A stretch of DNA of 64,000 nt from Bacteroidota bacterium (GCA_030706745.1 JAUZNX010000006.1:62001-126000); one strand, 5' to 3'. Numbered from the stretch's first letter, positions 30,956-57,300 are shown. The notes: generated by a model from the sequence alone, not told the origin. A program made the numbers and translations.

Positions 30956-32953
30956 ATGTTCGCCAATATTGCACAGCAAGGCCGGACCCTGTGGCCAGTG
31001 ACTGCCATCCTCGCCATGGTGATCTTTGGCACGCCCAACTCGATGTTTGGCGGTCAACGAGTCTCGCAATCAAGCGGAGTTTGGTCATCAGCGGCAACAT
31101 GGGCCGGAGGCATCACACCGCAAGCCGGAGATACTGTGATCATCGCCAGCGCGGATTCAGTTTATCTTGATTCCTCAAGTGCCGCGTTGAATGCGGTCAC
31201 CATCTACGGTCGATTCTCACTTGGCAGAGATACATTGTTCTTTAGTGCCTCGCCAAACGACACCCTCGTTCAAATATTCGGCACGCTCGATGCTGGCAGC
31301 GGATGGTTCGCGTTTCCTGCTCCAGTATCGCCACGACCTGTCATTCAGGTTGCAGCCGGTGGACTATTCCGCATGTCATCAGCGATTCCGTTTCCCACCT
31401 CCGGCATTTTCGATTCTCTTTCAAGTCCGCTCTTTGCCCTCGATGATTCGAGCACGTTCGAGTACTATTCACAGAATCTCGATCTGATTGACGTTTCCTA
31501 TCTTGCGAATAATCTTGTAGACCATTCGTATGCCAATCTCACGCTAAACGGCATGGACGCTTCGTTTCGGTCGAATCCGGTGCGAATTCGCGGAACGCTG
31601 CTGATCGATTCCGGCGCTTCCATCATCGCTGCCGCACGAGTCGCGTATGTACAGGGATTTGACACGCAGGTCGTCACAATATCAGGAGACGTTGTGAACC
31701 AGAATAGTGGCGAATCCGGCTCGGCGGGCGCAGGGCTTCGCGGCTGTGGCATGCAGTCATCGGGTTCTGAAGTATGGGTCTTCGATCGATTCACTGGCAG
31801 CAGTGGAAAAGACACATGCCATTGGTCCGGGCCTTCGCAACTTGGGAGTGTACTTGTGCGGAAAAATACCGTACTGAGTATTCGGTATCTCGACGATCTG
31901 CATTGCGATTCACTGGACATCCTGACACACCTCACCGAAGAAAATCCTCCATGCGGTGGTCATGTGATCGGCAAAATCTATTCGGAGTTTCCGAGAACGC
32001 TCGATGCTTCAAATCCTGTCGATAGTTTTTATGGCCTCGGGCTAACGATCCGCACCGGGACACTCCCTTACATTGGCCGCACCCGAGTCGTTCGTGTCAA
32101 TGGATACAAGCCGCCAGGTGCCCGTGATGACGCAAGGCCGGCGCTCCGATATTTTGTGATCACCCCAGGTGCTTCGCCACAGCAAGGCGCGCCGGACGAA
32201 ATGACCTTCCAACTCCATTGCGACGAGCTAAACGGCGCAAATCCAAACCACCTCCATTTCTGGCGCTCACGCGATCAAGGCCGGGCATGGGCATTTAGTG
32301 GAATCAGCAATTTCGATCCTGAGACCTTCGCTTTCGAGTGGGATACAACTGTGCTTGGCCTTGCCAATGATTCTGGCAGCTTTTACTGGATGCTATCCGA
32401 AGGATATACAGACCATCCTACGCCAATCGATCTTGTTAGCTTTAGCGCAACACGCGGTCCGGGCGGTGTCGATCTCACTTGGGAGACCGCGGCCGAGATA
32501 AATCTTGCAGGCTTCGAATTAGACCGAGGCTCGCGGATAGCCCCAGTCAACGTAGCCAGTTTCTTGTCCGATCGCAGCCTGATTTCCCAATCAAGATACG
32601 GTCAGCTGTATTCGGTTCTGGATACCTCTTCAGGTCCGATGCAATATGATCTCTACGAGGTTTCGAATGATGGGATCAGAACCTGGCTCGCCGAACGCTG
32701 GGTCCAGGCAACATCGGAAGCAGAGCCAGCCTTGGATCCGCAAATCTCCATTCAGGGGAAGCAGCTCTCAGTTGTCCTCGGGGCAAACCAGGAGGGACGC
32801 ATCGAATTGGACGATGTGATCGGTCGCCCGGAAATGTCCAGGGAGTTCACAGAGCAAATGCGAACAATAATGAGCCTCCCAGCCGGTGTCTATATAGCCA
32901 GGGTGTTCTGGAGAGGCGGTCAGGCCTCCCGGTTGCTGATCTTGGGTGAATAG
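30956..32953 (+). CDS. Large secreted protein with T9SS-type C-terminal end
   Basis: This 665-residue protein has a signal-like N-terminus (VTAILAMVIFGTPNSMFGG-Q). SGVWSSAATWAGGITPQAGD followed by TVIIASADSVYLDSSS is the G8-like opening ('W.....W.gG..P..gd.v.I..g') seen in many T9SS cargo proteins. The middle part is a beta-helix-like chain. From about residue 500 come PIDLVSFSATRGPGGVDLTW and ETAAEINLAGFELDRG, the immunoglobulin-like domain that often precedes a sorting signal. The last 60 residues (SLPAGVYIARVFWRGGQASR) look like a degenerate T9SS sorting domain. Probably a surface protein; function unknown. Confidence 0.65.
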   Translation: MFANIAQQGRTLWPVTAILAMVIFGTPNSMFGGQRVSQSSGVWSSAATWAGGITPQAGDTVIIASADSVYLDSSSAALNAVTIYGRFSLGRDTLFFSASPNDTLVQIFGTLDAGSGWFAFPAPVSPRPVIQVAAGGLFRMSSAIPFPTSGIFDSLSSPLFALDDSSTFEYYSQNLDLIDVSYLANNLVDHSYANLTLNGMDASFRSNPVRIRGTLLIDSGASIIAAARVAYVQGFDTQVVTISGDVVNQNSGESGSAGAGLRGCGMQSSGSEVWVFDRFTGSSGKDTCHWSGPSQLGSVLVRKNTVLSIRYLDDLHCDSLDILTHLTEENPPCGGHVIGKIYSEFPRTLDASNPVDSFYGLGLTIRTGTLPYIGRTRVVRVNGYKPPGARDDARPALRYFVITPGASPQQGAPDEMTFQLHCDELNGANPNHLHFWRSRDQGRAWAFSGISNFDPETFAFEWDTTVLGLANDSGSFYWMLSEGYTDHPTPIDLVSFSATRGPGGVDLTWETAAEINLAGFELDRGSRIAPVNVASFLSDRSLISQSRYGQLYSVLDTSSGPMQYDLYEVSNDGIRTWLAERWVQATSEAEPALDPQISIQGKQLSVVLGANQEGRIELDDVIGRPEMSREFTEQMRTIMSLPAGVYIARVFWRGGQASRLLILGE

Positions 32954-33160
32954 TCGTCCCCTAATCAGAAAAGTCCTCCTACATCTTATTTGAGCGCGAA
33001 ACCATGCGCTCATCAGCCAGACTATCGCAGACTCAGTGGAGGAATCTGGGTAGTATCAGAGTGAGACGCATTTGACTCATTCTGGAACAGACTGTCCAAT
33101 TCTGATACCAATAATTCTCCATATTCCTTCGTATTCGACAATAATTCATATCCGCTCGGA

Positions 33161-33191
33161 TTGACTTTCTCTTTTGGCGTGTCTATATTTA
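33161..33191 (+). promoter_or_regulatory. Candidate Bacteroidota-type promoter (TTG-N20-TATATTTA)
   Basis: TTG at 33161 is separated by exactly 20 bases from TATATTTA at 33184. This follows the known Bacteroidota -33/-7 pattern. Nearly the same box, with the same spacing, occurs in front of the secreted-protein genes at 35280 and 38636. It lies about 110 bases upstream of the gene at 33298. The rest of the 32954-33297 gap holds no recognised feature. Confidence 0.6.
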
Positions 33192-33297
33192 GGACGGGAC
33201 GGGTGATATTATTAGCTTCCGGACCGATAGTTTAGTTTGCCGGCTTCATTTAGTTTGCCACTAAGGGCGCCGGAACTGATGGAAATTATAGCCGGCG

Positions 33298-34977
33298 ATG
33301 CCCCAGCACGCGACGTTTGCCAAAACGCATATCAGCGCCCCCGCGACTGCCAGTCGAATTGCTCGACTTTTGGCAGTTGCGGTGCTGTATATGGTTATGG
33401 CTCAGGCGGCCGGCGCGCAGCTCATGATTAATAAGGGCGCAACGATTGTCACAAAGACTAACTCGTTCATGCAGGTCAATGGGGCGTATCAGAACCAGAC
33501 TGGTTCGATCGATGACTCTGGCATCGTTACGATCACAACCGACTTCACGAACAACAGTGCAGCCACGGCCGGAGGATCGGGATGGTACAACATTGGCGGT
33601 AACTTCACGAATGATGGCACATTCCAGCGTAAAACTGGCACCGTAAACCTCAACGGTACATCCAATCAGAATGTCGGTGGCGCAGTGATCACGACGTTCT
33701 ATGACCTTCAGTTTACAAATGGCGGCTCGAAGACCCTAACACAAAAGGAAATCGTTGACTCGGATGCGTATTTCACGAACGGCATTGTCTACACCACGCA
33801 GACCAACGTGCTGAACTTCACGATCAACGGCAATTGGGTTAACAATGCGGGTCTGCCCGTCGCACCTGCTGCCAGCTACGTCGATGGCCCATGTGAGAAG
33901 GACATGAACTCCACGAACCGCTTCTGGTTTCCAGTTGGTAAGAGCGGACGTGGCAATACCGGTGCAATCACTCCTCAGAGCGCGACAGCGACAACATATC
34001 GGATGCAGTATTTTAACTATCCGTATGTCAACACCACTTCGATCCAATCGCCATTGCAGCAAGTCAGCAAGATTCAATACTGGCACGCAGATATCGTAAC
34101 GCCGGCGACTGGCGGAGCGGATGCAATTGCACGGCTTTACTGGATTCCTGGCGATTATACGATGTCGGTGTATATGTCCACGATGTCGAACCTTGTAGTC
34201 GCGCGTTGGGATACGCTGGCGCCCGTCATTCCTGGCCCAACGCCGGCATGGGTTACGGCTGGTGTGAGCGCGCTCTCGCCGGGAGCGAGCTATCTGTCCG
34301 GATGGATCGAATCCGCAGTGGTTACGGCCGTTAAGTATGGCACCGCAATCATCAACAGGCCCTTTACAATCGCATCGCTTACCTCCGACAACTCCCTGCC
34401 CGTCGAAATGGGACCGTTCTCGGTAAAGCAAGTCGCGAATCACGTAGTACTCGATTGGAAGACATACAGCGAGATTCAAAGTCTCGGGTTCGAAGTGGAA
34501 CGTCGCCGCGAAGGCGAGCCATCGGTTTTGATCAAGAGCTTCGAACATGATTCATCACTGCTCGCCAAATCACCCTATGGGGCGACCTATCAAACGGTCG
34601 ACGGCGATGGCCTTGCCAATGGCACATATGTCTACGATTTGTATCAGATCGATGCCAATGGCACACGCACTCACTCTGGATCTCGAACGCTCGACTTCCA
34701 CCAGATTGCGATTCCTAGTTCGCTTTCGGTTGCGATCTATCCGAATCCGACATCGCAATTAGCGAACATTTCAATCGGGCTTGCTGAAGATGGACACGTA
34801 AATGCAATGCTCTATGATGCTAGCGGGAGACTTGTCGGGCAGATCGCGGACCTTAATCTCACTGCCGGCGAGCATCTCTTCAGTCAGGATGTCTCGCACC
34901 TCCCTGCGGGGATCTATCAACTGAGCATTACGACGGGCGACTCACACATTGCGAAGAGCATTGTTGTCCGTCGATAG
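33298..34977 (+). CDS. Secreted protein with T9SS type A sorting domain
   Basis: This 559-residue protein has a signal peptide (IARLLAVAVLYMVMAQAAGA-Q). The N-terminal third (about 35-200) consists of repeats such as TNNSAATAGGSGWYNIGGNF and NDGTFQRKTGTVNLNG, a beta-helix-like pattern common in T9SS cargo. A second part (about 370-470) is the immunoglobulin-like domain LPVEMGPFSVKQVANHVVLD. The last 80 residues contain SVAIYPNPTSQLANISIGL, ASGRLVGQI and LPAGIYQLSITTGDSHIAKS, a clear T9SS type A sorting signal. The protein is likely displayed on or released from the cell surface; function unknown. Confidence 0.78.
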   Translation: MPQHATFAKTHISAPATASRIARLLAVAVLYMVMAQAAGAQLMINKGATIVTKTNSFMQVNGAYQNQTGSIDDSGIVTITTDFTNNSAATAGGSGWYNIGGNFTNDGTFQRKTGTVNLNGTSNQNVGGAVITTFYDLQFTNGGSKTLTQKEIVDSDAYFTNGIVYTTQTNVLNFTINGNWVNNAGLPVAPAASYVDGPCEKDMNSTNRFWFPVGKSGRGNTGAITPQSATATTYRMQYFNYPYVNTTSIQSPLQQVSKIQYWHADIVTPATGGADAIARLYWIPGDYTMSVYMSTMSNLVVARWDTLAPVIPGPTPAWVTAGVSALSPGASYLSGWIESAVVTAVKYGTAIINRPFTIASLTSDNSLPVEMGPFSVKQVANHVVLDWKTYSEIQSLGFEVERRREGEPSVLIKSFEHDSSLLAKSPYGATYQTVDGDGLANGTYVYDLYQIDANGTRTHSGSRTLDFHQIAIPSSLSVAIYPNPTSQLANISIGLAEDGHVNAMLYDASGRLVGQIADLNLTAGEHLFSQDVSHLPAGIYQLSITTGDSHIAKSIVVRR

Positions 34978-35279: not shown

Positions 35280-36821
35280 ATGGTCTCCCTGATAGACCTG
35301 GGGATTCACATTCCCGTTGGGCTCCGCCGTGTCTTGAAGATATGGCACGTGGCCACCGTGTTCGGATTCGCTGGACTGCTCATGCTGGAGCTTTCAACGG
35401 CTGCTTTCGCGCAGAACGTCGGCATCGGAACGTCGACGCCGGATGCAACTGCATTGCTTGACCTGACTTCCACTTCGCAGGGCTTGCTCGTGCCAAGATT
35501 GACCAGCGCTCAAATGTTTGCCGTTCCTTCACCCGGCACCGGCGATCTCATTTTCAATACGTCCCTCACTACGTTCTATTTTTATGACGGTTTAGCATGG
35601 ATCCCAATGACGGGGACCGGCTGGCTATTATCGGGGAACGGTGGTACGATAGCCGGTACAGATTTTCTTGGGACAACAGATAATGCGGACCTGGTCTTCA
35701 AGGCAAACGCCATGGAGGGCATGCGGCTCAGCACATCGCAAAATCTCGGCGTCGGTACGGCCACGCCTGCTTCCGCGCTCCACACCGTTGCATCCGGAGC
35801 GATGACAACGGACTATACAGGAAACCTCCTGACCAATGTGGCGACATCCTCGACCGCTTCAATTACCAAATACGGAATGGACATTCTTTCGAGCGGCACG
35901 TGGAATGGCGCATCGGCGACCAATATCGGGCTGCACACGAATGCAACTGGCGGCACGACAAATTACTCGGCCATTTTCGAAGGCGGTAACGCCGGCATCA
36001 ATACAACAGCACCCGCAACATATATGGATGTCAGTGGCGATGCTTCGATCCGATACTCCTCCTATTCGGCCTCAAATGGAGTCAACAATGACATCAATAT
36101 CGGAACCTCGAGTTTTGTCCGCCTTACCGGTCCAACGGCTGACTTCTCGGTCACCGGCGTTGCCGGCGGCGTGGATGGGAAGGTCCTCATTCTATTCAAC
36201 CCGACCAACCAACTATTTACGATCTCCAATGAAAACACTGGTTCCGTGGCCGCAGACCGGATTTGGACGTTCAACAGCACTGGCGACATCGTCGTCGATG
36301 GCAAAGGGGCGGTCAAAATGATTTATAGCGCGCCGGACAGTCGATGGATTGTGCTCAGTTCGACCACAGTCTCAACGTCCAGCACGGGACTGATCTTCGC
36401 CAAGAAGCCAGCAGATGAAAGTGTCAGAAGCTCCACAACGCTGCAAAATGATAACGACCTGCAATTGCCGATCTCGGCGAATGATTCAATGATCGTGGAA
36501 GGATATATCCATTATCATAACACCGGCTCCGGCAGTTTGAGAATGGCATTCACCATTCCAACCGGAGCAAGTATGGACATCGCAATTTACACCGACGACG
36601 TAATCCAACCCCCGCCAGAAACGTGGACGCTCACTGCCGGCGGCGCATCAACCGGTGACATGGGCATGAACGGTACCGACGTTCCTATTCATTTTTATGG
36701 CATGGTCATCAGTGGTGCAAACGCTGGAACGATTCAAATCCAGTGGGCGCAAGGAGTTTCGTCATCGACCCCGACAACCTTCAAGGCAAAATCCTATATC
36801 CGTGGGACACTGATCCGCTGA
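35280..36821 (+). CDS. Secreted tail-fibre-like protein, array member 1
   Basis: This 513-residue protein has a signal peptide ending STAAFA-Q. The mature start NVGIGTSTPDATALLDLTST, then GLLVPRLTSAQM, is common to all five array members. GWLLSGNGGTIAGTDFLGTT with NADLVFKANAMEGMRL follows: the module discussed in the findings. The central part has SVTGVAGGVDGK and SNENTGSVAADRIWTFN. The C-terminal domain (about 375-513) begins KKPADESVRSSTTLQNDNDL and ends SSTPTTFKAKSYIRGTLIR, which matches a domain found in many phage tail and structural proteins. No T9SS domain and no membrane anchor are seen. Function unknown; fibre or adhesin is inferred. Confidence 0.7.
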   Translation: MVSLIDLGIHIPVGLRRVLKIWHVATVFGFAGLLMLELSTAAFAQNVGIGTSTPDATALLDLTSTSQGLLVPRLTSAQMFAVPSPGTGDLIFNTSLTTFYFYDGLAWIPMTGTGWLLSGNGGTIAGTDFLGTTDNADLVFKANAMEGMRLSTSQNLGVGTATPASALHTVASGAMTTDYTGNLLTNVATSSTASITKYGMDILSSGTWNGASATNIGLHTNATGGTTNYSAIFEGGNAGINTTAPATYMDVSGDASIRYSSYSASNGVNNDINIGTSSFVRLTGPTADFSVTGVAGGVDGKVLILFNPTNQLFTISNENTGSVAADRIWTFNSTGDIVVDGKGAVKMIYSAPDSRWIVLSSTTVSTSSTGLIFAKKPADESVRSSTTLQNDNDLQLPISANDSMIVEGYIHYHNTGSGSLRMAFTIPTGASMDIAIYTDDVIQPPPETWTLTAGGASTGDMGMNGTDVPIHFYGMVISGANAGTIQIQWAQGVSSSTPTTFKAKSYIRGTLIR

Positions 36822-36843
36822 ACAGTCTTTCGAACTTCGAACT

Positions 36844-38394
36844 ATGATTGCATTCTTCTTCGCCAAACCTCAACACCGGGCGCCTCTACAATGCCTGTTG
36901 GCATTCACATTTACCGTTATGCTTGCGCTAGCTCCAAACCTGCGCATGCTCCGTGCACAGGGGAATGTTGGGATCGGGACCGTGGCTCCCGATGCAAGCG
37001 CCTTACTTGACCTAACAAGCATCACTCGAGGCCTTCTGGTGCCGAGGATGACGCACGCGCAAATGAATGCTGTGACCCTTCCCGCAACTGGCCTGCTGGT
37101 CTACTGTACCGATTTCGTCAGCGCAATCAGTCCTGCAACATTTTACTATTATGATGGAACGGCCTGGGTACCATTTCTCGGAACCGCATGGCAACTCCTT
37201 GGAAATAGCGGGACCATTGCTGGGACGAACTTCGTCGGGACAACGGACAATGCTGATCTCGTCTTTAAAACCAATGCACTCGAAGGCATGCGACTGACCA
37301 CTGCGGGTAATCTTGGAATCGGAACTGCCGTGCCCACCTCGAAGCTGCATACAGTGGCTTCGGGCGCAATGACCGCTGACTACACAGGCAATCTGCTTAC
37401 GAATACGGCGACATCTTCGACACCCTCCATCACAAAATACGGAACGGACATTCTATCGACCGGGACATGGAATGGGACATCCGCCACGAATGTGGGTCTC
37501 CATGTCAATGCCACCGGCGGTACCACGAACTACTCCGGGATATTTGAAGGCGGCAATGTTGGGATCAATACTACCGCGCCGGCAACCTACCTCGATATTA
37601 ATGGCGATCTTGCTACCCGTTATTCTTCGGTTTCGGCTTCGAACGGAGCCAACAACAATCTCACAATCGGCACATCGAGTTTTGTCCGGCTAACGGGACC
37701 AACGGCCTCCTTTTCGGTCACGGGCATTGCCGGCGGCGTCGATGGTAAGATGCTCGTACTATTCAATGCCACAACACAGCAGATCACAATCTCGAACGAG
37801 AGCGCGAGTTCGCTGGCTGCGAACAGGATCTGGACACTGAATAGCACCGGCGATATCGTCATCAGCGGGAAGGGCGCCGTGAAACTGATATACAGCGCAG
37901 CCGATAGCCGATGGATCGTCATCAGCTCCTCCACAACCGTTTCCACATCCACAACCGGCGTCATCACTGTCAAGAAACCCGCGGATCAAAGTATCTCGAA
38001 CTCGACAACCTTGACAAACGACAACAATCTGGTCATTCCCATCAACGCAAATGATTCGATGGTAGTCGAAGGATATTTGCATGCTAATGTCGCCTCAACA
38101 ACTCCTCAAATTCGGCTCGCGTGGACGATCCCCACTGGGGCTTCAATGGATATCGGGATCTACGTCGATGATGTCAGGTTGGGATCACAAGAGACGTTCA
38201 TTCTTACGTCGAGTGGCACCTCGACCGGAGCCATCCAACTAAACGCCGGAGATATTCCGATCCATTTTTGGGGCGTGGTGGTTACCGGCTCGACTGCAGG
38301 CAACATCCAACTCAAATGGGCGCAAGGGGTATCTTCTGGAACGCCGACGACACTAAAAGTAAAATCCTACATGCGAGGGTACTATATCCGATGA
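36844..38394 (+). CDS. Secreted tail-fibre-like protein, array member 2
   Basis: This 516-residue paralogue follows member 1 by 22 bases. It has a signal peptide ending RMLRA-QG, the start NVGIGTVAPDASALLDLTSI, the module AWQLLGNSGTIAGTNFVGTT with NADLVFKTNALEGMRL, and the same C-terminal domain (KKPADQSISNSTTLTNDNNL ... TTLKVKSYMRGYYIR). Members 1 and 2 agree along almost their whole length, so they result from a tandem duplication, but many synonymous differences show it is not recent. Function unknown. Confidence 0.7.
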   Translation: MIAFFFAKPQHRAPLQCLLAFTFTVMLALAPNLRMLRAQGNVGIGTVAPDASALLDLTSITRGLLVPRMTHAQMNAVTLPATGLLVYCTDFVSAISPATFYYYDGTAWVPFLGTAWQLLGNSGTIAGTNFVGTTDNADLVFKTNALEGMRLTTAGNLGIGTAVPTSKLHTVASGAMTADYTGNLLTNTATSSTPSITKYGTDILSTGTWNGTSATNVGLHVNATGGTTNYSGIFEGGNVGINTTAPATYLDINGDLATRYSSVSASNGANNNLTIGTSSFVRLTGPTASFSVTGIAGGVDGKMLVLFNATTQQITISNESASSLAANRIWTLNSTGDIVISGKGAVKLIYSAADSRWIVISSSTTVSTSTTGVITVKKPADQSISNSTTLTNDNNLVIPINANDSMVVEGYLHANVASTTPQIRLAWTIPTGASMDIGIYVDDVRLGSQETFILTSSGTSTGAIQLNAGDIPIHFWGVVVTGSTAGNIQLKWAQGVSSGTPTTLKVKSYMRGYYIR

Positions 38395-38544
38395 GTTTTG
38401 CCAGGTCCCGCGAAACCACCAATTTTGCCCGACAACTGTCCATAAGTGAGACAAATGTGTACCACCCTGAGACGATGATTCTATGGGCGAACCACTAAAC
38501 TTATCTTTTCATCCAAAAGCCGTAGAATTAGTTACAAAGAAGGA

Positions 38545-38575
38545 TTGACTTCGGCTCTCAAAGCGTCTATATTTG
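38545..38575 (+). promoter_or_regulatory. Candidate promoter (TTG-N20-TATATTTG)
   Basis: TTG at 38545 and TATATTTG at 38568 with 20 bases between them, about 60 bases upstream of the gene at 38636. The TTGACTT...GTCTATATTTG wording is almost the same as at 33161. It suggests that members 3 to 5 have their own transcript. Confidence 0.65.
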
Positions 38576-38635
38576 GGAAGTGCGGATGAGTCTTGGTAGT
38601 GGACCATTTCCGCCAAATGGTAGGATACTTTGCTA

Positions 38636-40738
38636 ATGTTTGCGTTTGGATGCGCCCGAAGGGACCCGAGCCGGAGCTTTGCCTCGGCCCTATGCGCGCG
38701 AGCAACAGTTGCCTTGGTCTGTTGCACCATACTGGCGTGTTTGGAGCCCACGCTCGTATCTGCTCAGAACGTTTCGATCGGCACCGCGACTGCAAATAAC
38801 TCGGCCCTTCTCCATCTCGAGTCGACTTCAAAGGGTTTGTTGATTCCCAGAGTGACCACCACTCAAATGCAGGCGATCGCCTCGCCTGCAACCGGGGACC
38901 TGGTTTATAATACTACTGGAGGCACGTTTTACTACTATACTGGCTCCTTCTGGTCGCCTCTAGCGGGTAGTGGGTGGTCGCTTACAGGCGATGCCGGCAC
39001 GAGTGCCTCGACGAATTTCCTTGGTACGAAGGATTCCGTCGATCTCGTGCAACGGACCAATAATCATGAGCGCGCGCGTGTCCTCTCCAACGGAGACGTA
39101 GCGCTGACAAACACCACGAACAAAGCCGGCTCTCTGATATTCTATGAGCCCTCGGGCTCCGGGACATTATACAGTTCCTTCCAGGCCGGCAATCAGGATA
39201 GCACAATCCATTACATTCTTCCGCCCACAGATGGCATTAGCGGCCAGGCCCTCGATGATAGTCTTGGGACCTTAGGCTGGAAGACTTTTGGCACGGTCGG
39301 AGGAGGGTTTGGCGATACACTCTGGAAACGCGGAAGCGGAACGGCATCGCTCTATTCACTCGGTACACTTAATCGAACTAACGGAAAATGGTCGATCGCA
39401 TCGACCGAAAACTGCTCTGGCGGCAGCGAAGCTTCCTCTGTATTTGGCGACTCCAACAGTAGCAGCGCCAAGTATGGCTGCGTTACCGGTGGATCGAACA
39501 ATAGCGTTTCCGGTAACGGCGGTAGCGTCGTCCGCGGAGGAGCGTGGAATTCTTCCGGGTCGCAAAACACGATGATCGTTGGAGGTCTGGCAAACCAGGC
39601 ATCTGGACAGGACTGCGTCATTCTGGGCGGCGATTCCAATCACACCAGCGGCGACAACTCCATTATCATCAACGGAGCAGACAATACCTTCGCCAGCAAC
39701 AATAACTTGGTTTTTGGATATAATGCCCATCCAACCGGATCGAACCAACTTATTTTTTATCCCCCAACGTCGACTGCGATTCGAACCGGAATTCAGAATA
39801 CGAGCCCGGCCGAGGCCATGGATGTGACCGGCAACGTTCGCCTCTCACAGGCCTTGGTTCCGAATGGATTATCAGGCAGCGCCGGCTTGACTCTAAAATC
39901 GGCGGGGACCGGTTCGCCGCCCACATGGGGGACTGTCTCAATTCCCACAACCAGTAACTGGTCAACGTTGGGAAACTCCGGATCCAGCCCGCCAACAACG
40001 TACATCGGCACGACAGATTCGATGGCTTTCGTCATACGAACGAATGCAACGGAACGCGCCAGAATTCGCTCAACTGGATTCGTTGGTGTTGGCACCACGA
40101 CTCCGGTTCATCAACTTCATATCGTCAGTACGAGCACGACGGACGAAACTGCCGCGGCATTTGGTGGATCGACTGGCACTACCTCATCCGAATCGGTCGG
40201 TGTCTGGGGCCGAGCAGATAATACGAGTTCATCAAACACGGGCACGATCGCAGTCCTTGCCACAGGCAATGGTGCTACGAGCGCAGGCTCCACCAATGTC
40301 GCCCTCCAAATTTCGCAGGCAGAGTTCGCCATGGGCCGTACATCGCAGAACCCATCGCCGGGCACCGCTACGGACGCCGCTGCTTCAGGCGCTGCATACA
40401 GCCAGGAAGGCCCTTCCGGTGTCATTCAACTCTCGATGGGAAATGATCTGACGACGCTGCCTCCGACTGCTGGCGTGTTTCAGGATTTGGGAAACGTCAC
40501 GATCAACAATCGCTACATTACTTCTTCGAGCATCATTCTCGTCGGAGTAGTCGATAAAATCAACGGCGGCGGCAACCCTGATCCCAGAAACTCCATCTAT
40601 CGAGTCGATGTCGAGAGCCGCGCGTCCGGCTCATGCACGTTGCGCGTCTCGATGATCCCGTTTGTATCGGACACTCATGTGTACCCGGCGTCGAATTATA
40701 TTCGCATCGGATACATCGTAATCAATCCAGGCAGATGA
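38636..40738 (+). CDS. Secreted tail-fibre-like protein with YadA-head-like repeats, array member 3
   Basis: This 700-residue protein starts at the ATG at 38636; a TTG two codons earlier is the alternative. The signal peptide ends EPTLVSA-Q, followed by NVSIGTATANNSALLHLEST. It carries two copies of the module: GWSLTGDAGTSASTNFLGTK and NWSTLGNSGSSPPTTYIGTT. Between them are YadA-head-like repeats of about 15 residues (GGSNNSVSGNGGSVVRGGAW, MIVGGLANQASGQ, VILGGDSNHTSGD), which in YadA-type adhesins form a beta-roll. The C-terminal domain runs from EGPSGVIQLSMGNDL to SNYIRIGYIVINPGR. Its stop overlaps the next start (ATGA). Function inferred as adhesive fibre. Confidence 0.7.
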   Translation: MFAFGCARRDPSRSFASALCARATVALVCCTILACLEPTLVSAQNVSIGTATANNSALLHLESTSKGLLIPRVTTTQMQAIASPATGDLVYNTTGGTFYYYTGSFWSPLAGSGWSLTGDAGTSASTNFLGTKDSVDLVQRTNNHERARVLSNGDVALTNTTNKAGSLIFYEPSGSGTLYSSFQAGNQDSTIHYILPPTDGISGQALDDSLGTLGWKTFGTVGGGFGDTLWKRGSGTASLYSLGTLNRTNGKWSIASTENCSGGSEASSVFGDSNSSSAKYGCVTGGSNNSVSGNGGSVVRGGAWNSSGSQNTMIVGGLANQASGQDCVILGGDSNHTSGDNSIIINGADNTFASNNNLVFGYNAHPTGSNQLIFYPPTSTAIRTGIQNTSPAEAMDVTGNVRLSQALVPNGLSGSAGLTLKSAGTGSPPTWGTVSIPTTSNWSTLGNSGSSPPTTYIGTTDSMAFVIRTNATERARIRSTGFVGVGTTTPVHQLHIVSTSTTDETAAAFGGSTGTTSSESVGVWGRADNTSSSNTGTIAVLATGNGATSAGSTNVALQISQAEFAMGRTSQNPSPGTATDAAASGAAYSQEGPSGVIQLSMGNDLTTLPPTAGVFQDLGNVTINNRYITSSSIILVGVVDKINGGGNPDPRNSIYRVDVESRASGSCTLRVSMIPFVSDTHVYPASNYIRIGYIVINPGR

Positions 40739-42813
40739 AGAACGTCCGCAACATCCTCATCTTTCTCGTTCTGGCCGGATTATTTGGCCTCTCGAGGGCG
40801 CATGCCCAGAGCAGCAACGTGGGGATTGGTACGACCGCTCCGGACGCGAGCGCATTGCTGGACCTGACAAGCATCTCGCGCGGCCTGCTAATCCCTCGGA
40901 TGACGGAAGCGCAAAAGGTTGCCATATCTTCGCCAGCTACCGGACTGATGATCTATCAGACCGATAATGCAACAATCTCACCGTATGCCGGACAGACGCC
41001 AACGTTCTGGTACTTCAATGGCACGACGTGGGTACCCTTTCTCAGTGCGGGTTGGCTCGTGCTCGGAAATTCCGGGACGAGTGCCAACACGAATTTCATC
41101 GGCACTCTCGACTCGGTCGACTGGGTCATCCGCACCAACAATGCCGAGCGGTTGCGAGTCTACGCTGGCGGCAACGTGGCGCTAACGAACGCGGATAACA
41201 AGGCAGAGGAATTTCGCTTCTACCAACCTTCCGGCACAGGATCCCTCTATTCTGGATTTAAAGCATCGCCAAGGACAACCAACTCCGTCACCTATACCTG
41301 GCCTTCGGCAGATGGTAACGGAACAAATTACATTCTTTGTACGGATGGATTTGGTAACCTCTCGTGGAGAGGATTTGGATCAGCCGGTGGTGGTGGTCTC
41401 GATACATTCTGGTCACGCGGAACAGGACGATTCTCGCTGATCGGTCACGGCGCCGGATGTACGGCTTCCGGCGATTATTCGATCACCGATGGTTTTGATA
41501 ACTGGGCCTCTGGTACTGCCTCCGTTGTCTGGGGCGAAAACAACATTGGTTCGGGTTATGGCTCGGTCATCTCCGGAGGTGCGAGCGATACCGCAAGTGG
41601 TAACTACTCCACGATCGGTGCCGGCAGCAATAATTCTTCGACCGGCTCATATTCTTCCGTGGTAGCCGGGCAATATAACAGTGCTTGCGGTCCGTATGCT
41701 GTGGTCGTTGGTGGTACGAGTAATACTGCATGTGGAAGTTATGCGACGGTCTTGGGCGGTACAAACAATAATGTCAGCGGCAATTATTCATTGGCCTTTG
41801 GGATCGGCGCACTCGTTTCGACGGATAACACTGTTGTGTATTATGCTTCCGGTAATACGCCCGCAAAAGTTGGTGTAGGTACGCAAACTCCGGCGGAAGC
41901 ACTCGATATCGTTGGCAATCTGCGTTTTTCCGGCGCACTGATGCCCAACGGTCTTGCCGGGACACCCGGCTATATTCTGCAATCCGCCGGCGCGAGTACA
42001 CCGCCGGTCTGGGCATCCGCCGGAAGCCTTGGTGCCTGGAGCACATGGGGCAACAGTGGTACGACTCCCCCGTTCAATTATATCGGCACGAGCGATGCGC
42101 AGGCATTCGTCTTCAAAACGTATGCGACGGAGCGAATGCGTATTCTCTCGACCGGACAAGTTGCGATCAACACGACTTCAACGACGCATCAATTACACTC
42201 CCTCTACTCCGGAACAACCGATGAGACGGCCGCCGTCTTCGGGCAGGCCACCGGCGCCACTTCGAGTCAAGTTGTCGGCGTATGGGGAAGTGCTTCAGGA
42301 ACGGGTACTGGCTCGATCGGAGTGCTCGGAACCGGCAATGGCATCACATCCGCCGGCTCGACGAACGTCGCCCTGCAAGTTAATGATGGCGAGGTCACGA
42401 TGGGTCGCACCACCGAGACTTCCAGTTCGTACAGCGTGGTGGAATCCGCCGCAACCGGCACAGCATATTCTGCGCAAGGTCCGAGCGGTGTGATCGAGCT
42501 GACACTTGGATCAGGCGGCAACCTTTCGACGGTCGCACCAAATTCGGGTGTCTTCCAGAACCTTGGGAAGATCACGGTTAGTAATCGCTATTGCTCAGCA
42601 TCGAGCATTGTGATCGTGAATGTCGTTTCCAAGAGCGATGACGGCGTCGCCCCCGACTGTAAATTGGCAGAGTATTTTGCCGACGTCAGCAACCGTACCA
42701 GCGGAGGATTCGACGTTCAGATCGGTATGATTCCGACCACTACAAGCGCTTCGAATTATACAACTTCGGATAAGATCCGTCTGTCATATCTCATAGTCAA
42801 CCCAGGGAGATAA
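40735..42813 (+). CDS. Secreted tail-fibre-like protein with YadA-head-like repeats, array member 4
   Basis: This 692-residue protein starts at 40735, overlapping the previous stop by four bases. The signal peptide is MKNVRNILIFLVLAGLFGLS, ending AHA-Q. Two module copies are GWLVLGNSGTSANTNFIGTL and AWSTWGNSGTTPPFNYIGTS. The repeats between them are very regular: SVISGGASDTASGNYSTIGA, GSNNSSTGSYSSVVAGQYNS, VVVGGTSNTACGSYATVLGG. The C-terminal domain is the same type as in member 3 (YSAQGPSGVIELTLG ... DKIRLSYLIVNPGR). The stop codon overlaps the ATG of the next gene by one base (TAATG). Confidence 0.7.
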   Translation: MKNVRNILIFLVLAGLFGLSRAHAQSSNVGIGTTAPDASALLDLTSISRGLLIPRMTEAQKVAISSPATGLMIYQTDNATISPYAGQTPTFWYFNGTTWVPFLSAGWLVLGNSGTSANTNFIGTLDSVDWVIRTNNAERLRVYAGGNVALTNADNKAEEFRFYQPSGTGSLYSGFKASPRTTNSVTYTWPSADGNGTNYILCTDGFGNLSWRGFGSAGGGGLDTFWSRGTGRFSLIGHGAGCTASGDYSITDGFDNWASGTASVVWGENNIGSGYGSVISGGASDTASGNYSTIGAGSNNSSTGSYSSVVAGQYNSACGPYAVVVGGTSNTACGSYATVLGGTNNNVSGNYSLAFGIGALVSTDNTVVYYASGNTPAKVGVGTQTPAEALDIVGNLRFSGALMPNGLAGTPGYILQSAGASTPPVWASAGSLGAWSTWGNSGTTPPFNYIGTSDAQAFVFKTYATERMRILSTGQVAINTTSTTHQLHSLYSGTTDETAAVFGQATGATSSQVVGVWGSASGTGTGSIGVLGTGNGITSAGSTNVALQVNDGEVTMGRTTETSSSYSVVESAATGTAYSAQGPSGVIELTLGSGGNLSTVAPNSGVFQNLGKITVSNRYCSASSIVIVNVVSKSDDGVAPDCKLAEYFADVSNRTSGGFDVQIGMIPTTTSASNYTTSDKIRLSYLIVNPGR

Positions 42814-44972
42814 TGCGAATTACGAATTACGAATTACGAATGACGAATGGCTGGCAGCACTTGTGGCTGGCACCGCGCATGGCGGTCGCCTCTGCGAGAA
42901 TGCTCGTTCGCCGTTCCGCATTTGTCATTCTCCTATTCATCCTTCAGCATTCGACATTCGTCTTTTCGGTTCGGGCACAGGGCAACGTGGGAATCGGCAC
43001 CACGTCACCCGATCCGAGCGCGTTGCTTGACCTGACCAGCACTTCGAAAGGATTGCTTGTGCCACGCATGTCCGAGGCGCAGAAGAACGGGATCGCATCG
43101 CCTGCGACAGGATTGCTTATCTTCGAAACGGATACCGCGACGACCGGGGCTTACGCCGGTCAGGCTCCGACATTCTGGTATTATAATGGCTCTTCCTGGA
43201 TCCCGTTCCTCGGTGGCGGTTGGCTCTTGCTCGGTAACTCTGGCACCAACCCAACCGGCAATTTTATCGGCACGAAGGACTCCGTTGATTGGGTCATCCG
43301 GACGAACGACACGGAACGCGTACGGATCTATTCCGGCGGCAATATGGGCCTCATTAATAATAACAATACTGCGGAAGAGCTGCGATTGTTTATGCCATCC
43401 GGGTCAGGGTCATATTACACAGGCTTCAAGGCCGGCGTTCAGACTGCGTCACCCAATTACATTTGGCCTCCATCCGATGGCCAGGCAACAAACTGGGTCC
43501 TCTGCACGGATGGATTTGGAGATTTGACCTGGAGAGGATTCAGCTCGAGTGGTGGTGGCGGTATTGACACGATGTGGTCGCGCGGTACCGGACATCTTGC
43601 ACTCTACGGCCATGGCGCAGGCAATGTCGCCTCCGGCGACTATTCAATTACGAGTGGCTACTTCAACGCGGCATCCGGAACGGCAACCGTCGTTTGGGGC
43701 GAACACAACATCGCTTCGGGATACGCATCCGACGTAGCTGGCGGATTTTATGACACAGCTTCCGGCGCATATAGTACGATCGGAGGTGGCAGTAACAATT
43801 CAGCTACCGGCACCTACGCCTCGGTGGTCGCAGGCCAATACAATACGGCGTGTGGCACCTACTCTATCGTCGTCGGGGGCAACAACAACAGCGCCTGTGG
43901 CACCTACTCAACGGTATTGGGTGGCAGCTACAACAGCGTTACGGGCAATTATTCAATGGCCTTTGGCCAGGGATGCAACGTGACCACGGATAATACCATC
44001 GTGTATTATTCTTCCGGAGCTACCCCCATGAAACTAGGCATTGGCAACTATGCGCCCGCTGAAGTACTCGATGTCACCGGGAATATTCGGTTCTCCGGTG
44101 CACTCATGCCTAATGGACTAGCCGGAACGACCGGTTATCTCCTCACTTCTACAGGGTCGAATTCACCACCAGTCTGGGATTCGACCGGAAATTTCTACTG
44201 GAGAACCTGGGGCAACGCCGGAACGACAGCCTCCTACAATTATCTCGGGACGAAGGACGCACAGCCGCTCGTCTTTAAGACTGCCAATACGGAGCGAATG
44301 CGTATTCTCTCCACCGGACAAGTCGCGATCAATACGACGACGTCGGCGCACCAATTGCGTTCACTGTACACAGGTACAACCGATGAAGTCGCTGCCATCA
44401 TGGGCGAGGCTACCGGTGCTACACTGAATGCCGCTGTCGGCACTTGGGGAAACGCGTCGGGTGCGGGCACCGGTTCGATTGGAGTGCTCGCAACTGGCAA
44501 CGTCAACACGAGTGCAGGCCAGACCAACGTCGCGCTGCAAATTAATGATGGCGAGTTCGCAATGGGTCGAACAACAGAAGCGCCAGGGGTCGGAACGACC
44601 GTCGAGGGCGCAGCCAGCGGGACGGCCTATTCCGCGCAAGGACCCAGCGGCGTGATCGAACTCACGCTTGGCGGCGGAAACCTTAGCACAGTTGCGCCCA
44701 CCGCCGGCCTCTTCCAAAATCTTGGTACCCTCACGATCAACAATCGATATGCTTCTGCCAGCAGCATCGTGCTCATCAGCGTGCTTTCAAAAATTGACGA
44801 TGGCAATGCGCCGGATTGCCGATCAGCGGTATACTTTATCGACGTTAATAATCGAACTACTGGAGCATTCGACATCCGGGTCAGCATGATACCGACGATC
44901 ACCAGTGGCTCCAACTATTCGACATCGGACAAGATCAGAATCGGATATGCCATCATTAATCCAGGAAGATAG
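42813..44972 (+). CDS. Secreted tail-fibre-like protein with YadA-head-like repeats, array member 5
   Basis: This 719-residue protein is the closest relative of member 4. Its first 60 residues are made by a heptad repeat element (42817-42960): MRITNYELRMTNGWQHLW..., then the hydrophobic FVILLFILQHSTFVFSVRA-Q, a usable signal peptide. After the cut comes NVGIGTTSPDPSALLDLTST. The two module copies are GWLLLGNSGTNPTGNFIGTK and YWRTWGNAGTTASYNYLGTK. YadA-head-like repeats follow the order GSNNSATGTYASVVAGQYNT, ACGTYSIVVGG, ACGTYSTVLGG. The C-terminal domain ends DKIRIGYAIINPGR. A strong terminator follows at 45061. Function unknown. Confidence 0.7.
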   Translation: MRITNYELRMTNGWQHLWLAPRMAVASARMLVRRSAFVILLFILQHSTFVFSVRAQGNVGIGTTSPDPSALLDLTSTSKGLLVPRMSEAQKNGIASPATGLLIFETDTATTGAYAGQAPTFWYYNGSSWIPFLGGGWLLLGNSGTNPTGNFIGTKDSVDWVIRTNDTERVRIYSGGNMGLINNNNTAEELRLFMPSGSGSYYTGFKAGVQTASPNYIWPPSDGQATNWVLCTDGFGDLTWRGFSSSGGGGIDTMWSRGTGHLALYGHGAGNVASGDYSITSGYFNAASGTATVVWGEHNIASGYASDVAGGFYDTASGAYSTIGGGSNNSATGTYASVVAGQYNTACGTYSIVVGGNNNSACGTYSTVLGGSYNSVTGNYSMAFGQGCNVTTDNTIVYYSSGATPMKLGIGNYAPAEVLDVTGNIRFSGALMPNGLAGTTGYLLTSTGSNSPPVWDSTGNFYWRTWGNAGTTASYNYLGTKDAQPLVFKTANTERMRILSTGQVAINTTTSAHQLRSLYTGTTDEVAAIMGEATGATLNAAVGTWGNASGAGTGSIGVLATGNVNTSAGQTNVALQINDGEFAMGRTTEAPGVGTTVEGAASGTAYSAQGPSGVIELTLGGGNLSTVAPTAGLFQNLGTLTINNRYASASSIVLISVLSKIDDGNAPDCRSAVYFIDVNNRTTGAFDIRVSMIPTITSGSNYSTSDKIRIGYAIINPGR
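42817..42960 (+). repeat. Palindromic heptanucleotide element that encodes a signal peptide
   Basis: The left arm has three GAATTAC units then GAATGAC and GAATGGC; the right arm (42924-42960) has period-7 units such as GCATTCG and ACATTCG. It forms the 5' end of array member 5, starting four bases after the ATG at 42813. The encoded residues contain the signal peptide's hydrophobic core. Confidence 0.7.
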
Positions 44973-45060: not shown

Positions 45061-45103
45061 GAGAGGGGTGGCCCGTGGGGGGACCGCCCCTCATTTTTTT
45101 TAT
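45061..45103 (+). terminator. Rho-independent terminator of the five-gene array
   Basis: A 9-bp stem (GAGGGGTGG / CCGCCCCTC, one G-T pair) with a G-rich loop is followed by eight T residues, 90 bases after the stop of array member 5. Confidence 0.88.
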
Positions 45104-45943: not shown

Positions 45944-48100
45944 TTACCTCACTGATTCCAGCACGATCTCCGCGATATCCTTGACCTGCACGGTCTCCTG
46001 CTCGCCTTTGGCTTTGACGCCATCAGTCAGCATCGTCATGCAGTAGGGGCAAGCCGATGCGACAACCTTCGCGCCGGTGGCCAGAGCCTCTTCGGTGCGT
46101 TCGATGTTGATGCGCTTGCCTTGCTTCTCTTCCATCCACATTTGTCCGCCGCCGGCGCCGCAGCAGAATCCTCGCGAGCGCGAACGGTCCATCTCGATAA
46201 TGTCGAGTCCCGGCACGCTTGCGAGCGAGGTGCGCGGGGCTTCGTAAATGTCGTTGGAGCGGCCAAGATAACACGAATCGTGGTACGTAGCTTTCTGCTG
46301 TGATTCGTTCTTCGGTTTGATGCGGCCCTGATCGAGCAAGTCCTGGATCAATTCGGTATGATGTACTACTTCGAAATTCCCGCCGAATTGCTGCCACTCG
46401 TTTTTAATTGCGTTGAAGCAATGCGGACACGCCGTCACGACCTTCTGGACCTGATAGCGATTGAGCGTCTCAACATTTTCTCGGATCAGCGATTGCGCGA
46501 GATACTCGTTGCCCATGCGGCGCGCCGGATCGCCTGTGCATTTCTCTTCATTGCCAAGAATCCGGAAGTCAACGCCGGCGATCTGCATCAACTCTGCGAA
46601 CGCACGCGAAATCCTCTTGGCGCGCTGATCGTACGAACCGGCACAGCCAACCCAGAAGAGGACTGGCGGTTTGTCCATACCACCATCGGCCATCGTCTTC
46701 ACTCCAAGTCCCTCGGCCCATTCCCCACGCTCGCTGGGCGAGAATGCCCACGGCGAGAAGTTGTTTTCCATGTTGCCGAATGCGGACTGCAACTCCGGCG
46801 GGAAGCTCGACTCCATCATCACGAGATTGCGCCGCAGGTCGATGATCTCGTCCACATGTTCGATCGTGACAGGACACTCGGTCATGCATGCCTGGCATGT
46901 GGTGCATTGCCAGAGCATTTCGTCCGGGATGTAATCGCCGACGAATTTCTTCGCATCGACTTCCTCGCGCGTGAGCGTGGGCTTTTGGTAGAGCAACATC
47001 CCCTGGGCGTGGCTCAGCGTCTGATTCTCCGGCGTCACGATCTCATCGTTGAGCGCCTCTCCACTCGTGGCCACGTGAGACTTCATGGCCTGACCCGACC
47101 AGGTATCGAAGCCGTATGCCGACTGCGCTGTGAGATACGGCGCTTTGTCGAGCATCCGCTTGTGCGTCGCAATGATAATCATGCGCGGGTCGAGAATTTT
47201 TCCGGTGGAGTTCGCCGGACAGACCGATGTGCAGCGGCCGCAATGCGTGCAGGTGTCGCCATCAAGCAACTGTTTCCATGTCAGATGCTGGATGTCGGCG
47301 GCGCCATATTGCGTGATCGTCTCGTCCTCGAAGTTGATCGGCGCAAGAGAATTCTTGCGTTTGAGATCGGCGAAGAATACGTTCGGCAATGAGGTGAGAA
47401 CATGCAAGTGCTTCGAGTACGGCAGGTAATTCATAAAGCCGAGCACGAAGACAATGTGAATCCACCACGCCGATTCATAGATGAAGGGCGTCATCGCTGA
47501 GGCCGACAAGTGGCTGCCGGATTGCACCAGAAACATCGGCATAAGGAGCGCGGCAAGCGGACGGACTTCCCACGCGTATGAGTTGCCGAGTGCCATGCGA
47601 GCGGCGTTGGCAATCGTGAGCGAGCAGACGATTACCAGAATCAGAAGAAGAATCACGGAGGCGTCGATTCGCTCATGTCGATCGCCCTGAAGTCGCTTGA
47701 CCTTCGTGACAAACCGCCGCCAGAAGGAAACGACGACTGAGGTCACAACCAGCGCCATAAAAATATCCTGTGAGACAGTAATCACAGTGTAAACCGGCCC
47801 CAGAAACGATAGCGAAAAATGCCCGGCGGTAAGTCCCTCGCCAATTGCCTCGATGACGGCGAATATCAGCACCAGGAAACCCCAAAAAATGAATGCATGG
47901 ACCGGCCCTGCGATGGGATCGCGAAATATCTTCGATTGCCCAATGGCGACCGTCAGCACACGGCGCAAACGCTCTCCGGGCTTATCGAACCGGTCGGTCC
48001 ACCGGCCCAACCGGAGGAAGTCGATGAGCCGCTTGCTATTGATCAGAATGCCGCCAAATGCGGCCAGGAGGACGATTGCGAAAATAATGGCCTTTATCAT
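45944..48100 (-). CDS. Membrane-bound (Fe-S) oxidoreductase, heterodisulfide-reductase-like
   Basis: This 718-residue protein joins an N-terminal NarI-like membrane part (about 1-250, six helices, with HAFIFWGFLVLIFAVIEAIG) to a soluble part on the inner side. Two 4Fe-4S motifs follow: CTHCGRCTSVCPANSTGK and CTTCQACMTECPV. Two CCG domains follow: GCAGSYDQRAKR with KCTGDPARRMG and CPHCFNAIKNEW; then HDSCYLGRSNDIYEAPR, RGFCCGAGGGQMWMEEKQGK and SACPYCMTML. The fused layout is that of HdrCD-like proteins which often partner electron-transfer flavoprotein and link it to the quinone pool. No etfAB lies nearby. The start at 48100 is chosen over one 75 bases upstream because it begins directly with the first helix. 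Confidence 0.82.
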   Translation of the reverse strand: MIKAIIFAIVLLAAFGGILINSKRLIDFLRLGRWTDRFDKPGERLRRVLTVAIGQSKIFRDPIAGPVHAFIFWGFLVLIFAVIEAIGEGLTAGHFSLSFLGPVYTVITVSQDIFMALVVTSVVVSFWRRFVTKVKRLQGDRHERIDASVILLLILVIVCSLTIANAARMALGNSYAWEVRPLAALLMPMFLVQSGSHLSASAMTPFIYESAWWIHIVFVLGFMNYLPYSKHLHVLTSLPNVFFADLKRKNSLAPINFEDETITQYGAADIQHLTWKQLLDGDTCTHCGRCTSVCPANSTGKILDPRMIIIATHKRMLDKAPYLTAQSAYGFDTWSGQAMKSHVATSGEALNDEIVTPENQTLSHAQGMLLYQKPTLTREEVDAKKFVGDYIPDEMLWQCTTCQACMTECPVTIEHVDEIIDLRRNLVMMESSFPPELQSAFGNMENNFSPWAFSPSERGEWAEGLGVKTMADGGMDKPPVLFWVGCAGSYDQRAKRISRAFAELMQIAGVDFRILGNEEKCTGDPARRMGNEYLAQSLIRENVETLNRYQVQKVVTACPHCFNAIKNEWQQFGGNFEVVHHTELIQDLLDQGRIKPKNESQQKATYHDSCYLGRSNDIYEAPRTSLASVPGLDIIEMDRSRSRGFCCGAGGGQMWMEEKQGKRINIERTEEALATGAKVVASACPYCMTMLTDGVKAKGEQETVQVKDIAEIVLESVR

Positions 48101-48226
48101 CGGGGTGCAGTAACACAATTCGGGGGAAGGTAGTGGCGGGCAAAATGCAGTGATCGAAGGGCGCATTAAGGTCACAAATCGAGCCCTTCCGCACCATATT
48201 CATCCTTCCCTGTTTGATGGATTACG

Positions 48227-54345: not shown

Positions 54346-57300
54346 TTAGTTCTTCTCAACAATGAGCCAGGCGACGGTCGAGGTCTCGGCTGCATTGCTA
54401 CTGTTGATGACGAAGCTCGTCCCCGCCGTGACAGTCCCGATGGCTAAGTTACCGACCGTTCCGCCAGCAGCCTGAACCGTCAGGAAGATCAGCGAATTGC
54501 CCGTCACCGCTGTCGTGCTGACCGTAACGGTCCCACCCGCAAGCGTGGCCGTGCCGATCTTCGCATTGGAGCCACCCTTGATGGCGATCCCATTTCCAGC
54601 GGTTGTAATCGTGAGGTTTCCGGAGGTACTCACGTTCGTGACTGAGGTATTGCCAAGCTGGACCGTATTGCTCGCCGTTACGATCGCGGTCGCGCCGATG
54701 GCCGTCGCGTTCGTCAGCCCGTCCGTGCTGACGTCCGCGCCTTCCCCGATGGCAGTCAGGTGGTCTCCCGTTGCGTTGGTCTGAAGCGCCGTATGGCCGC
54801 TCGCGGTGTTCCAGTTGCCGGTCGTGTTGGAGTAAAGCGCTTCGTAGCCGCTCGCGCTGTTGTCGCCGCCAGTCGTGTTGTGATAAAGCGCATACATGCC
54901 GCTCGCCGCGTTGTTGCTGCCCGTCGTGTTGAAATAGAGCGCCTCATACCCGCTGGCGGTGTTGTTGCTGCCCGTCGTGTTGAGTATGAGCGACTGATAG
55001 CCGCTCGCGGTGTTGTTGCTGCCCGTCATGTTGGAGTTGAGCGCCGCATACCCGCTGGCCGTGTTGTTGGCGCCCGTCGTGTTGGAATAGAGCGCTGCAT
55101 ACCCGCTGGCCGCGTTGTTGTCGCCCGTCGTGTTGGATTGAAGCGCTCCAAAGCCGTTCGCGGTGTTGTATTTGCCGGTCGTGTTGGCGTTGAGCGCAAA
55201 ATTCCCTATCGCCGTATTTTGAATGCCGTTTCCTGTCGATGTGGGCTGGTTAGAAAACAGCGCCTGATACCCAACGGCAACGTTATTGCTGTTCCATGGG
55301 GTATTGGAGTTGGAGAAAGACTGGGTCTGTAAAGCACTCACTCCAATAGCGGTGTTCTGTCCAGCCGTCGTGTTAGCGTTGAGCGCCGAATATCCGCTCG
55401 CAGTATTGAAGGTTCCGATCGTGTTGAACAGGAGCGCATTTATTCCGCTTGCCGTATTGTCGGCGCCCGTCGTGTTGAAATAGAGCGCCTCATACCCGCT
55501 CGCGGTGTTGTTGTTGCCCGTCGTGTTGTGAAGGAGCGCACTGAACCCGCTGGCCGTGTTGTTGTCGCCCGTCGTGTTGGATTGAAGCGCTCCAAAGCCG
55601 TTCGCGGTGTTGTATTTGCCGGTCGTGTTGGCGTTGAGCGCAAAATTCCCTATCGCCGTATTTTGAATGCCGTTTGACGTCGATGTGGGCTGGTTGGAAT
55701 ACAACGCCTGATACCCAACAGCGACGTTATCGCTGTTCCAGGCCGTGCCGCCGTTGGCATAGGACTGGGTCTGTAATGCACTCTCTCCAATCGCGGTGTT
55801 TCGTCCAGCCGTCGTGTTGTGGTAGAGCGCATAGGCTCCGCTCGTCGTGTTGTCGGAGCCGGTCGTGTTGTTGTAGAGCGCATAATAGCCGCTCGCCGTA
55901 TTGTTGTTGCCGATCGTGTTGGAGAAGAGCGCGGCACTTCCACTCGCCGTATTGTAGTTGCCGGTCGTGTTGAAGAGGAGCGCGGCACTTCCACTCGCCG
56001 TATTGGCGGAGCCGGTCGTGTTGATGTAGAGCGCCTGCATTCCGCTCGCCGTATTTTCGGAGCCGGTCGTGTTGGAGTAGAGCGCCTGCCATCCATTCGC
56101 CGTATTGTAGTAGCCGGTCGTGTTGGAGTAGAGCGCCTGATATCCGCTCGCCGTATTGTAGTTGCCGGTCGTGTTGGCGAAGAGCGCAAAATTCCCTACC
56201 GCCGTATTTTGCATGCCGTTTGACGTCGATGTGGGCTGGTTGGAATACAGCGCCTGATACCCAACCGCGACGTTATTGCTGTTCCACGGGGTATTGGTGT
56301 TGGAATAGGACTGGGTCTGTAATGCACTCTCTCCAATAGCGGTGTTTTGTCCGGCCGTCGTGTTGGATTCGAGCGCCTCATACCCGCTCGCGGTGTTGTC
56401 GCTTCCCGTCGTGTTGGAATAGAGCGCCTGATAGCCGGCCGCAGTGTTGTTAGTGCCGGTGGTGTTATTAAATAGTGTTGCGAAGCCGTTCGCGGTACTG
56501 TTGTTGCCGGTCGTGTTGGCGAGAAGCGCCGCGAAGCCCGTTGCAGTATTGTCTTGCCCAATCGTATTGGAGGAAAGCGTCAGTGTGCCAGTTCCAGTAT
56601 TGGCAGACCCAGTGGTATTATTCTGAAGCACTTCATATCCGCTTGCAGTATTGTTCAAGCCTGTTGTATTGGCTGTGAGCGCATCGGCCCCATTCGCAGT
56701 GTTCCTGGCGCCTGTCGTGTTGGAATAGAGCGCCTGATAGCCGCTGGCTGTGTTGTTGTCGCCCGTCGTGTTGGAAATGAGCGCAGATTCTCCGCTCGCG
56801 GTGTTGTAGCTGCCCGTCGTGTTGAATTGGAGCGCAGATTCTCCGCTTGCGGTGTTGTCGTTGCCTGTCGTGTTGGAATAGAGCGCTCGAAGTCCGCTCG
56901 CGGTGTTGCTGATGCCCGTCGTGTTAGCTATGAGCGCCTGATAGCCGCTCGCGGTGTTGTAGCTGCCCGTCGTGTTCGATTGGAGCGCATTCAAGCCGCT
57001 GGCGGTGTTGTCGTTGCCCGTGGTGTTGGAATAGAGCGCTGCATCCCCGCTTGCGGTGTTGCCGCTGCCTGTCGTGTTGGAATAGAGCGCCTGAAACCCG
57101 CTCGCGGTGTTGTAGCTGCCCGTTGTGTTGGAATAGAGCGCTTGAAGCCCGCTGGCGGTGTTGGCGAAGCCCGTCGTGTTGGAATGGAGCCCCTGATATC
57201 CGCTCGCCGTATTGGCTGAGCCGGACGTGTTGGAGTAGAGCGCCTGATATCCGCTCGCCATATTGGCGCTGCCGGTGGTGTTGCTATTCAATACCTGATA

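Follow-up and report, generated by a model that had tools for sequence, protein, structure and literature searches.

A recurrent module at the front edge of blocks in MAT-like fibre proteins of a Bacteroidota bacterium

The closest described relatives of the proteins studied here are fibres of Bdellovibrio bacteriovorus, among them Bd3182, Bd2133, Bd1334 and Bd2439. Bd3182 was described as a "mosaic adhesive trimer" (MAT), a symmetric trimer in which defined capping loops cap the beta-helix; all 21 MATs share a common head, their tips, some of them TNF-like, have been exchanged, and for one Bdellovibrio tip the lectin BC2L-C was given as the closest match (PMC10769870). A signal peptide, a fixed N-terminal domain (in MATs the beta-rich NF053851, Bdello_MAT_N, right behind the signal peptide), beta-helix blocks with capping loops and diverse C-terminal tips are features that MATs have in common with the proteins of our locus. 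Parts of the same architecture recur in secreted S74 ("tail fiber domain") proteins of Bacteroidota, in phage tail fibres and tailspikes (PHROGs 9942, 6320 and 4636; K1F endosialidase, K1 lyase) and in trimeric autotransporters (YadA, UspA1).

We analysed a stretch of 64,000 nucleotides (the window) with six fibre genes, named here by the first position of their ORFs. Five form an array on the + strand (35280–44972), the span singled out by an earlier sequence-only reading, and the sixth lies outside it on the − strand. The first two array genes, 35280 (35280–36821, 513 aa) and 36844 (36844–38394, 516 aa), are 68% identical and share one plan: signal peptide, head of the GLLxPRM type, one module, capping loop, beta-helix block and tip, the last matching phrog_24062 in 35280 and being C1q/TNF-like in 36844. 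The other three follow the order head, module, YadA-like roll, module and lectin/tailspike-like tip; they are 38630 (38630–40738, 702 aa, ATG at 38636), 40735 (40735–42813, 692 aa, overlapping its predecessor by 4 bases) and 42813 (42813–44972, 719 aa, overlapping 40735 by 1 base). In the product of the sixth gene, 54346 (54346–59088, 1580 aa), a weak MAT-type head is followed by two modules, then by a long 17-residue roll and at the end by a K1-lyase_C tip; within the roll a larger repeating unit of about 230 residues can be recognized by a stretch of 20 letters. Signal peptides were recognized on the window's fibre proteins by eye.

The module was originally written as W-x-L/W-x-GN-x-GT-x(3-5)-[NT]-[FYI]-[ILV]-GT-x-D and said to occur ten times in the six products. 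A pattern scan and a six-frame scan of the window recovered every one of these copies at the genes named, one each in 35280 and 36844 and two each in 38630, 40735, 42813 and 54346. Outside the six ORFs the six-frame scan of the window yielded no copy, and 2000 shuffles of residue-shuffled proteins yielded no match (chance expectation zero). By pattern, alignment and profile, the copies lie on the + strand at 35619–35774 in 35280 (beginning LLSGNGGTIAGTDFLGTTD), 37186–37341 in 36844, 38972–39127 and 39956–40111 in 38630, 41050–41205 and 42034–42189 in 40735, and 43218–43373 and 44196–44351 in 42813, and on the − strand at 58024–58179 and 57289–57444 in 54346. Seven of the ten fit the literal pattern, while the remaining three need one relaxed position each: TDFLGT in 35280, GD in place of GN in copy 1 of 38630, and GS in place of GT in its copy 2. 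W, G, G, GT and D are invariant in the ten-copy alignment. The segment [RK]-x-N...E-x-[MLV]-R-[ILV], which had been said to follow in most cases, is recognizable in eight copies and exact in four; in 54346 RVN-QPSG-I stands in its place, and the ERMRI/capping-loop part has been replaced.

The fibre proteins encoded in the window are MAT-like; by their heads, however, the five array genes should not be classed with the MATs, and 54346 is borderline. The array genes share a GLLxPRM head that occurs in only those five proteins of this genome; in 36844 it was delimited at 36961–37176 (+) from its occurrence in the genome and from an AlphaFold model, in which pLDDT is above 90 in part. No match to it was found in Pfam, NCBIfam or the PDB. 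It reads SAxLDxxSTxKGLLxPRMTxAQ... and spans 35412–35609, 38765–38962, 40813–41049 and 42981–43217 in the other array genes; it is also present in many Bacteroidota S74 fibres and some virion proteins. Unlike the common head of MATs, to which it looks unrelated, it gave no match to NF053851 at E<=1 in any of the five. In 54346 the profile covers the first half of a MAT-type N-terminal domain (58807–59025, −), with 26.4 bits (E 1.2e-5, genome search) for half the profile, under the cut-off of 60. Weak MAT-type heads were found at about 19 places in the genome, and several of them belong to long proteins that also bear the module and have different tips (including L213–L220), so the fibre repertoire is larger than the window shows.

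A profile built from the ten copies was used on this genome, on genomes of the phylum and on the PDB. Its best PDB match was 8OJN, the Bd3182 fibre (E 4e-6), from GT-x-D onward; the MAT fibres 8OND, 8OML and 8OL4 followed, and nothing else in the PDB matched. The W..GN-GT first half found no solved relative in the PDB, the 8OJN construct itself beginning at GT-x-D. Protein 36844 aligns over the solved Bd3182 fibre (residues 132–256 to 8OJN 2–140) through both capping loops, with the second half of the module inside that structure. Its proximal loop (NLGIGTAVPTSKLH; 37309–37350, +) aligns with the proximal loop of Bd3182, and its distal loop (NVGINTTAPATYLD; 37558–37599, +) follows about 95 residues further, as in Bd3182. 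The MAT signature of a beta-helix block bounded by V-G-[GN]-x-x-x-P-x-x-x-L is therefore found in 36844 by comparison with 8OJN; the loops are degenerate in 40735 and 42813. We conclude that the module's second half belongs to an already described protein class, the MAT/S74 fibres, and that, judged by alignment, it and the block that follows are homologous to a solved trimeric fibre. The sequence-only reading had proposed a connector or trimerization element, possibly folded; homology to solved trimeric fibres supports the connector or trimerization role well, whereas a free-standing domain is represented only by low-confidence strands. AlphaFold monomers of 36844 and 42813 predict the same three short strands in the module. 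Low confidence is to be expected if the chain can fold only within a trimer, but does not prove that there is one; a trimer in this organism is probable by analogy with Bd3182.

Collagen-like triplets form triple helices. Of 203 module copies from unrelated loci, 22 have such triplets immediately upstream and none has them immediately downstream, against a background of 4%; at these runs the chains are expected to be trimeric. A G-S-G...W linker is also frequent upstream. What follows downstream is either a roll (17-residue NTAxGxxAL or YadA-like) or a capping loop and beta-helix, in a classification by simple patterns that leaves a fair part of the copies unclassed. The module thus occupies the upstream edge of a block in exported fibre proteins, which bears out two earlier suggestions, that it is a building block of secreted fibres and that it stands before a new block. 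Among 50 module-bearing relatives sampled from GTDB genomes, the S74 trimer chaperone forms the C-terminal end of 38; collagen repeats were found in 3, a T9SS tail in 3 to 4, a YadA head in 1 and the NCBIfam MAT head in 3. S74 proteins resemble those of the window in the GLLxPRM head, the module and the 17-residue roll, whereas the 38 end in a self-cleaving S74 chaperone and the window proteins carry other tips.

These tips are of three types among the six proteins, on a shared shaft, as the exchangeable tips of MATs would lead one to expect. The tip of 36844 (37978–38391, +) is a C1q/TNF-like jelly roll in the model, and a structure search returned C1q/TNF-like matches, BC2L-C lectin among them, with Z up to 7.8; that of 42813 (44622–44969, +; pLDDT about 90) resembles H-type lectins, an R-pyocin fibre tip and tailspike C-terminal domains with Z of 5 to 7, and by the tool's own warning matches with Z < 8 may reflect a common arrangement only. 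Global matches from a Foldseek search with the complete 36844 model carried no meaning (TM about 0.1), the tip alone giving an interpretable list. Such Z scores no more than suggest a resemblance to trimeric C1q/TNF and H-type-lectin/tailspike domains. In 54346 the tip is K1-lyase_C (PF24146; 54358–54567, −; residues 1508–1577), with 87.1 bits against a cut-off of 27; the 42813 tip showed neither a sequence match nor a significant profile link to this family. Searches of viral contigs gave three distant matches to the 36844 tip and none to the 42813 tip.

This distribution of conserved and variable parts bears on the possibility that the module is itself a ligand-binding, specifically glycan-binding, motif repeated along the fibre and not a structural cap. 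Its conserved surface-type residues (W, N and D) and repeated copies per protein could be read in this way, and Bd3182-type blocks do carry a surface cleft (PMC10769870). The conserved positions are, however, mainly glycine, threonine and aliphatic residues, a composition that suits turns and core strands. The copies are found where blocks meet, adjoining collagen-like stalks, and the module is the most shared part while the tips vary; recognition surfaces are usually the most variable. We consider a binding motif unlikely, and a structural role at the block edge remains our preferred reading.

Sequence comparison points to exchange of segments among the genes. In its other genomes the array consists of two to five genes, with the same neighbours where the contig reaches. 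The neighbours are 30956 and 33298 (a G8-domain protein and a T9SS protein; 30956–34977) upstream and an Fe-S oxidoreductase (45944–48175) downstream. For most of the genes, different segments have different nearest relatives. In one well-supported case, two array genes are sisters by head and are rejected as sisters by roll (p-AU 6e-7). The roll of this pair shows a drop in DNA identity from about 0.77 to 0.57, which sets in some 65 residues downstream of module 1 and ends at the start of module 2. Faster evolution of the roll could mimic part of this apparent segment exchange. Another protein of the genome, L213, combines a SYQG head with a tip of the 42813 type, direct evidence of head–tip exchange.

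Block exchange and the jump in identity at module 2 would also suit a module that is a recombination seam, a conserved short DNA permitting blocks or tips to be swapped, with little structural role. Codon identity at conserved residues is indeed raised in one module pair (0.64 vs 0.39), but in the other four comparisons it is not (0.24–0.41 vs 0.33–0.39), which led us to reject a seed at the DNA level. First and second copies stay distinct by position, and phages and distant phyla keep the protein sequence. The modules are conserved as protein, not as DNA, and a seam is, to our minds, slightly less likely again than a binding motif.

The existence of the module is thus confirmed, its distribution is wide, and none of the curated libraries searched has a name for it. 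The ten-copy profile hit 22 places in this genome, spread over about 14 ORFs, and found the module in 60 of 296 genomes of the phylum and on 70 IMG/VR contigs; a pattern search found 507 stretches with it in GTDB genomes. The nearest named records are Candidatus Kapaibacterium MAGs, and most other carriers belong to Chitinophagales, Cytophagales, Flavobacteriales, Bacteroidales and Ignavibacteriae; single MAGs from Lysobacterales, Gracilibacteria, Acetothermia and Thermoflexales, which may include contamination, represent other phyla. A consensus was drawn from 276 distinct copies (31 protein letters, then ..aGrI). The sequence-only reading had confined the family to this lineage; the profile search found the module widely in Bacteroidota and on phage contigs as well, so that the confinement cannot stand. 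Pfam and NCBIfam hold no family covering it; the existing family with a described function that would have spoken against the earlier reading was thus found in neither. Its PHROG matches are weak and fall mostly in tail-fibre families. That the six ORFs are tail-fibre remnants of a prophage, as the viral contigs and PHROG matches might suggest, is very improbable, given that the proteins visibly have signal peptides, that related genomes within the genus carry the array in synteny, flanked by the same cellular genes, that the neighbours scanned with Pfam are cellular, and that a hydrophobic start (a heuristic) was present in 70 of 83 bacterial carriers compared with 28 of 60 viral ones.

Phage fibres nevertheless resemble the window proteins in placing the module after collagen-like repeats, and tailspikes in the K1-lyase_C tip of 54346; unlike them, the window's fibre proteins carry signal peptides and are encoded in a cellular locus. 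Trimeric autotransporters share with 38630, 40735 and 42813 a YadA-head-like roll, a left-handed beta-roll at 43677–44003 (+) in 42813 that matches UspA1 3PR7. Export as a trimeric autotransporter (type Vc) was rejected, unlike in YadA and UspA1, as a profile search of the whole genome found no YadA_anchor beta-barrel (PF03895). Export of T9SS type A was rejected as well, the Por_Secre_tail sorting domain being absent from the end of all six ORFs. The genome has Por_Secre_tail domains at at least 150 places; the organism relies heavily on T9SS, yet its fibres are without the tail. Peptidase_S74 (PF13884) is likewise absent from the whole genome, which differs from MAT-bearing Bdellovibrio in being without S74 and in having no known predatory lifestyle. 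The outer-membrane barrel 45136 was rejected as a fibre partner: it lies behind a terminator-like hairpin with a T run just after the array (45075–45094, +; consensus match only) and turned up beside the array in only one other genome of the genus.

We conclude that the module probably serves mosaic fibre proteins as an entry cap, at the proximal edge of a trimeric beta-structured block, and that the array and 54346 probably make up a small MAT-like adhesive repertoire. W..GN-GT...FIGT-D would close off the preceding flexible part, be it head, collagen-like stalk or linker, and guide three chains, held in register, into two strands (L-x-F-[KR]-x-N and E-R-M-R-I). After these strands would come either the capping loop (G-N-V-G-I-G-T-x-x-P-x-x-x-L) with a beta-helix, or a roll of the YadA-like or 17-residue type. 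The module would then be a standard joint between a fixed cell-side head, one or more blocks each opened by a copy, and a distal, exchangeable tip resembling lectins, which may bind a surface glycan. By analogy with MATs, the most likely role of the proteins, if displayed at the surface, is attachment to other cells or surfaces via glycans. More tentatively, and with some doubt, the module could be a general entry cap, common to Bacteroidota fibres and phage tail fibres, that joins any stalk to any trimeric beta-block; the genus might in that case possess a repertoire that is free of the S74 chaperone, has its own unnamed head and reaches the surface by a route other than type Vc or the T9SS type A tail.

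Our results link the prey-recognition fibres of Bdellovibrio to a very large unannotated set of exported Bacteroidota proteins and to phage fibres, and the module profile finds such fibres where S74 is absent. They also resolve the fibre into three parts open to testing: the unnamed head, which must keep the fibre attached to the cell and is a good target for the question of surface anchoring, the joint, and tips that probably bind glycans.
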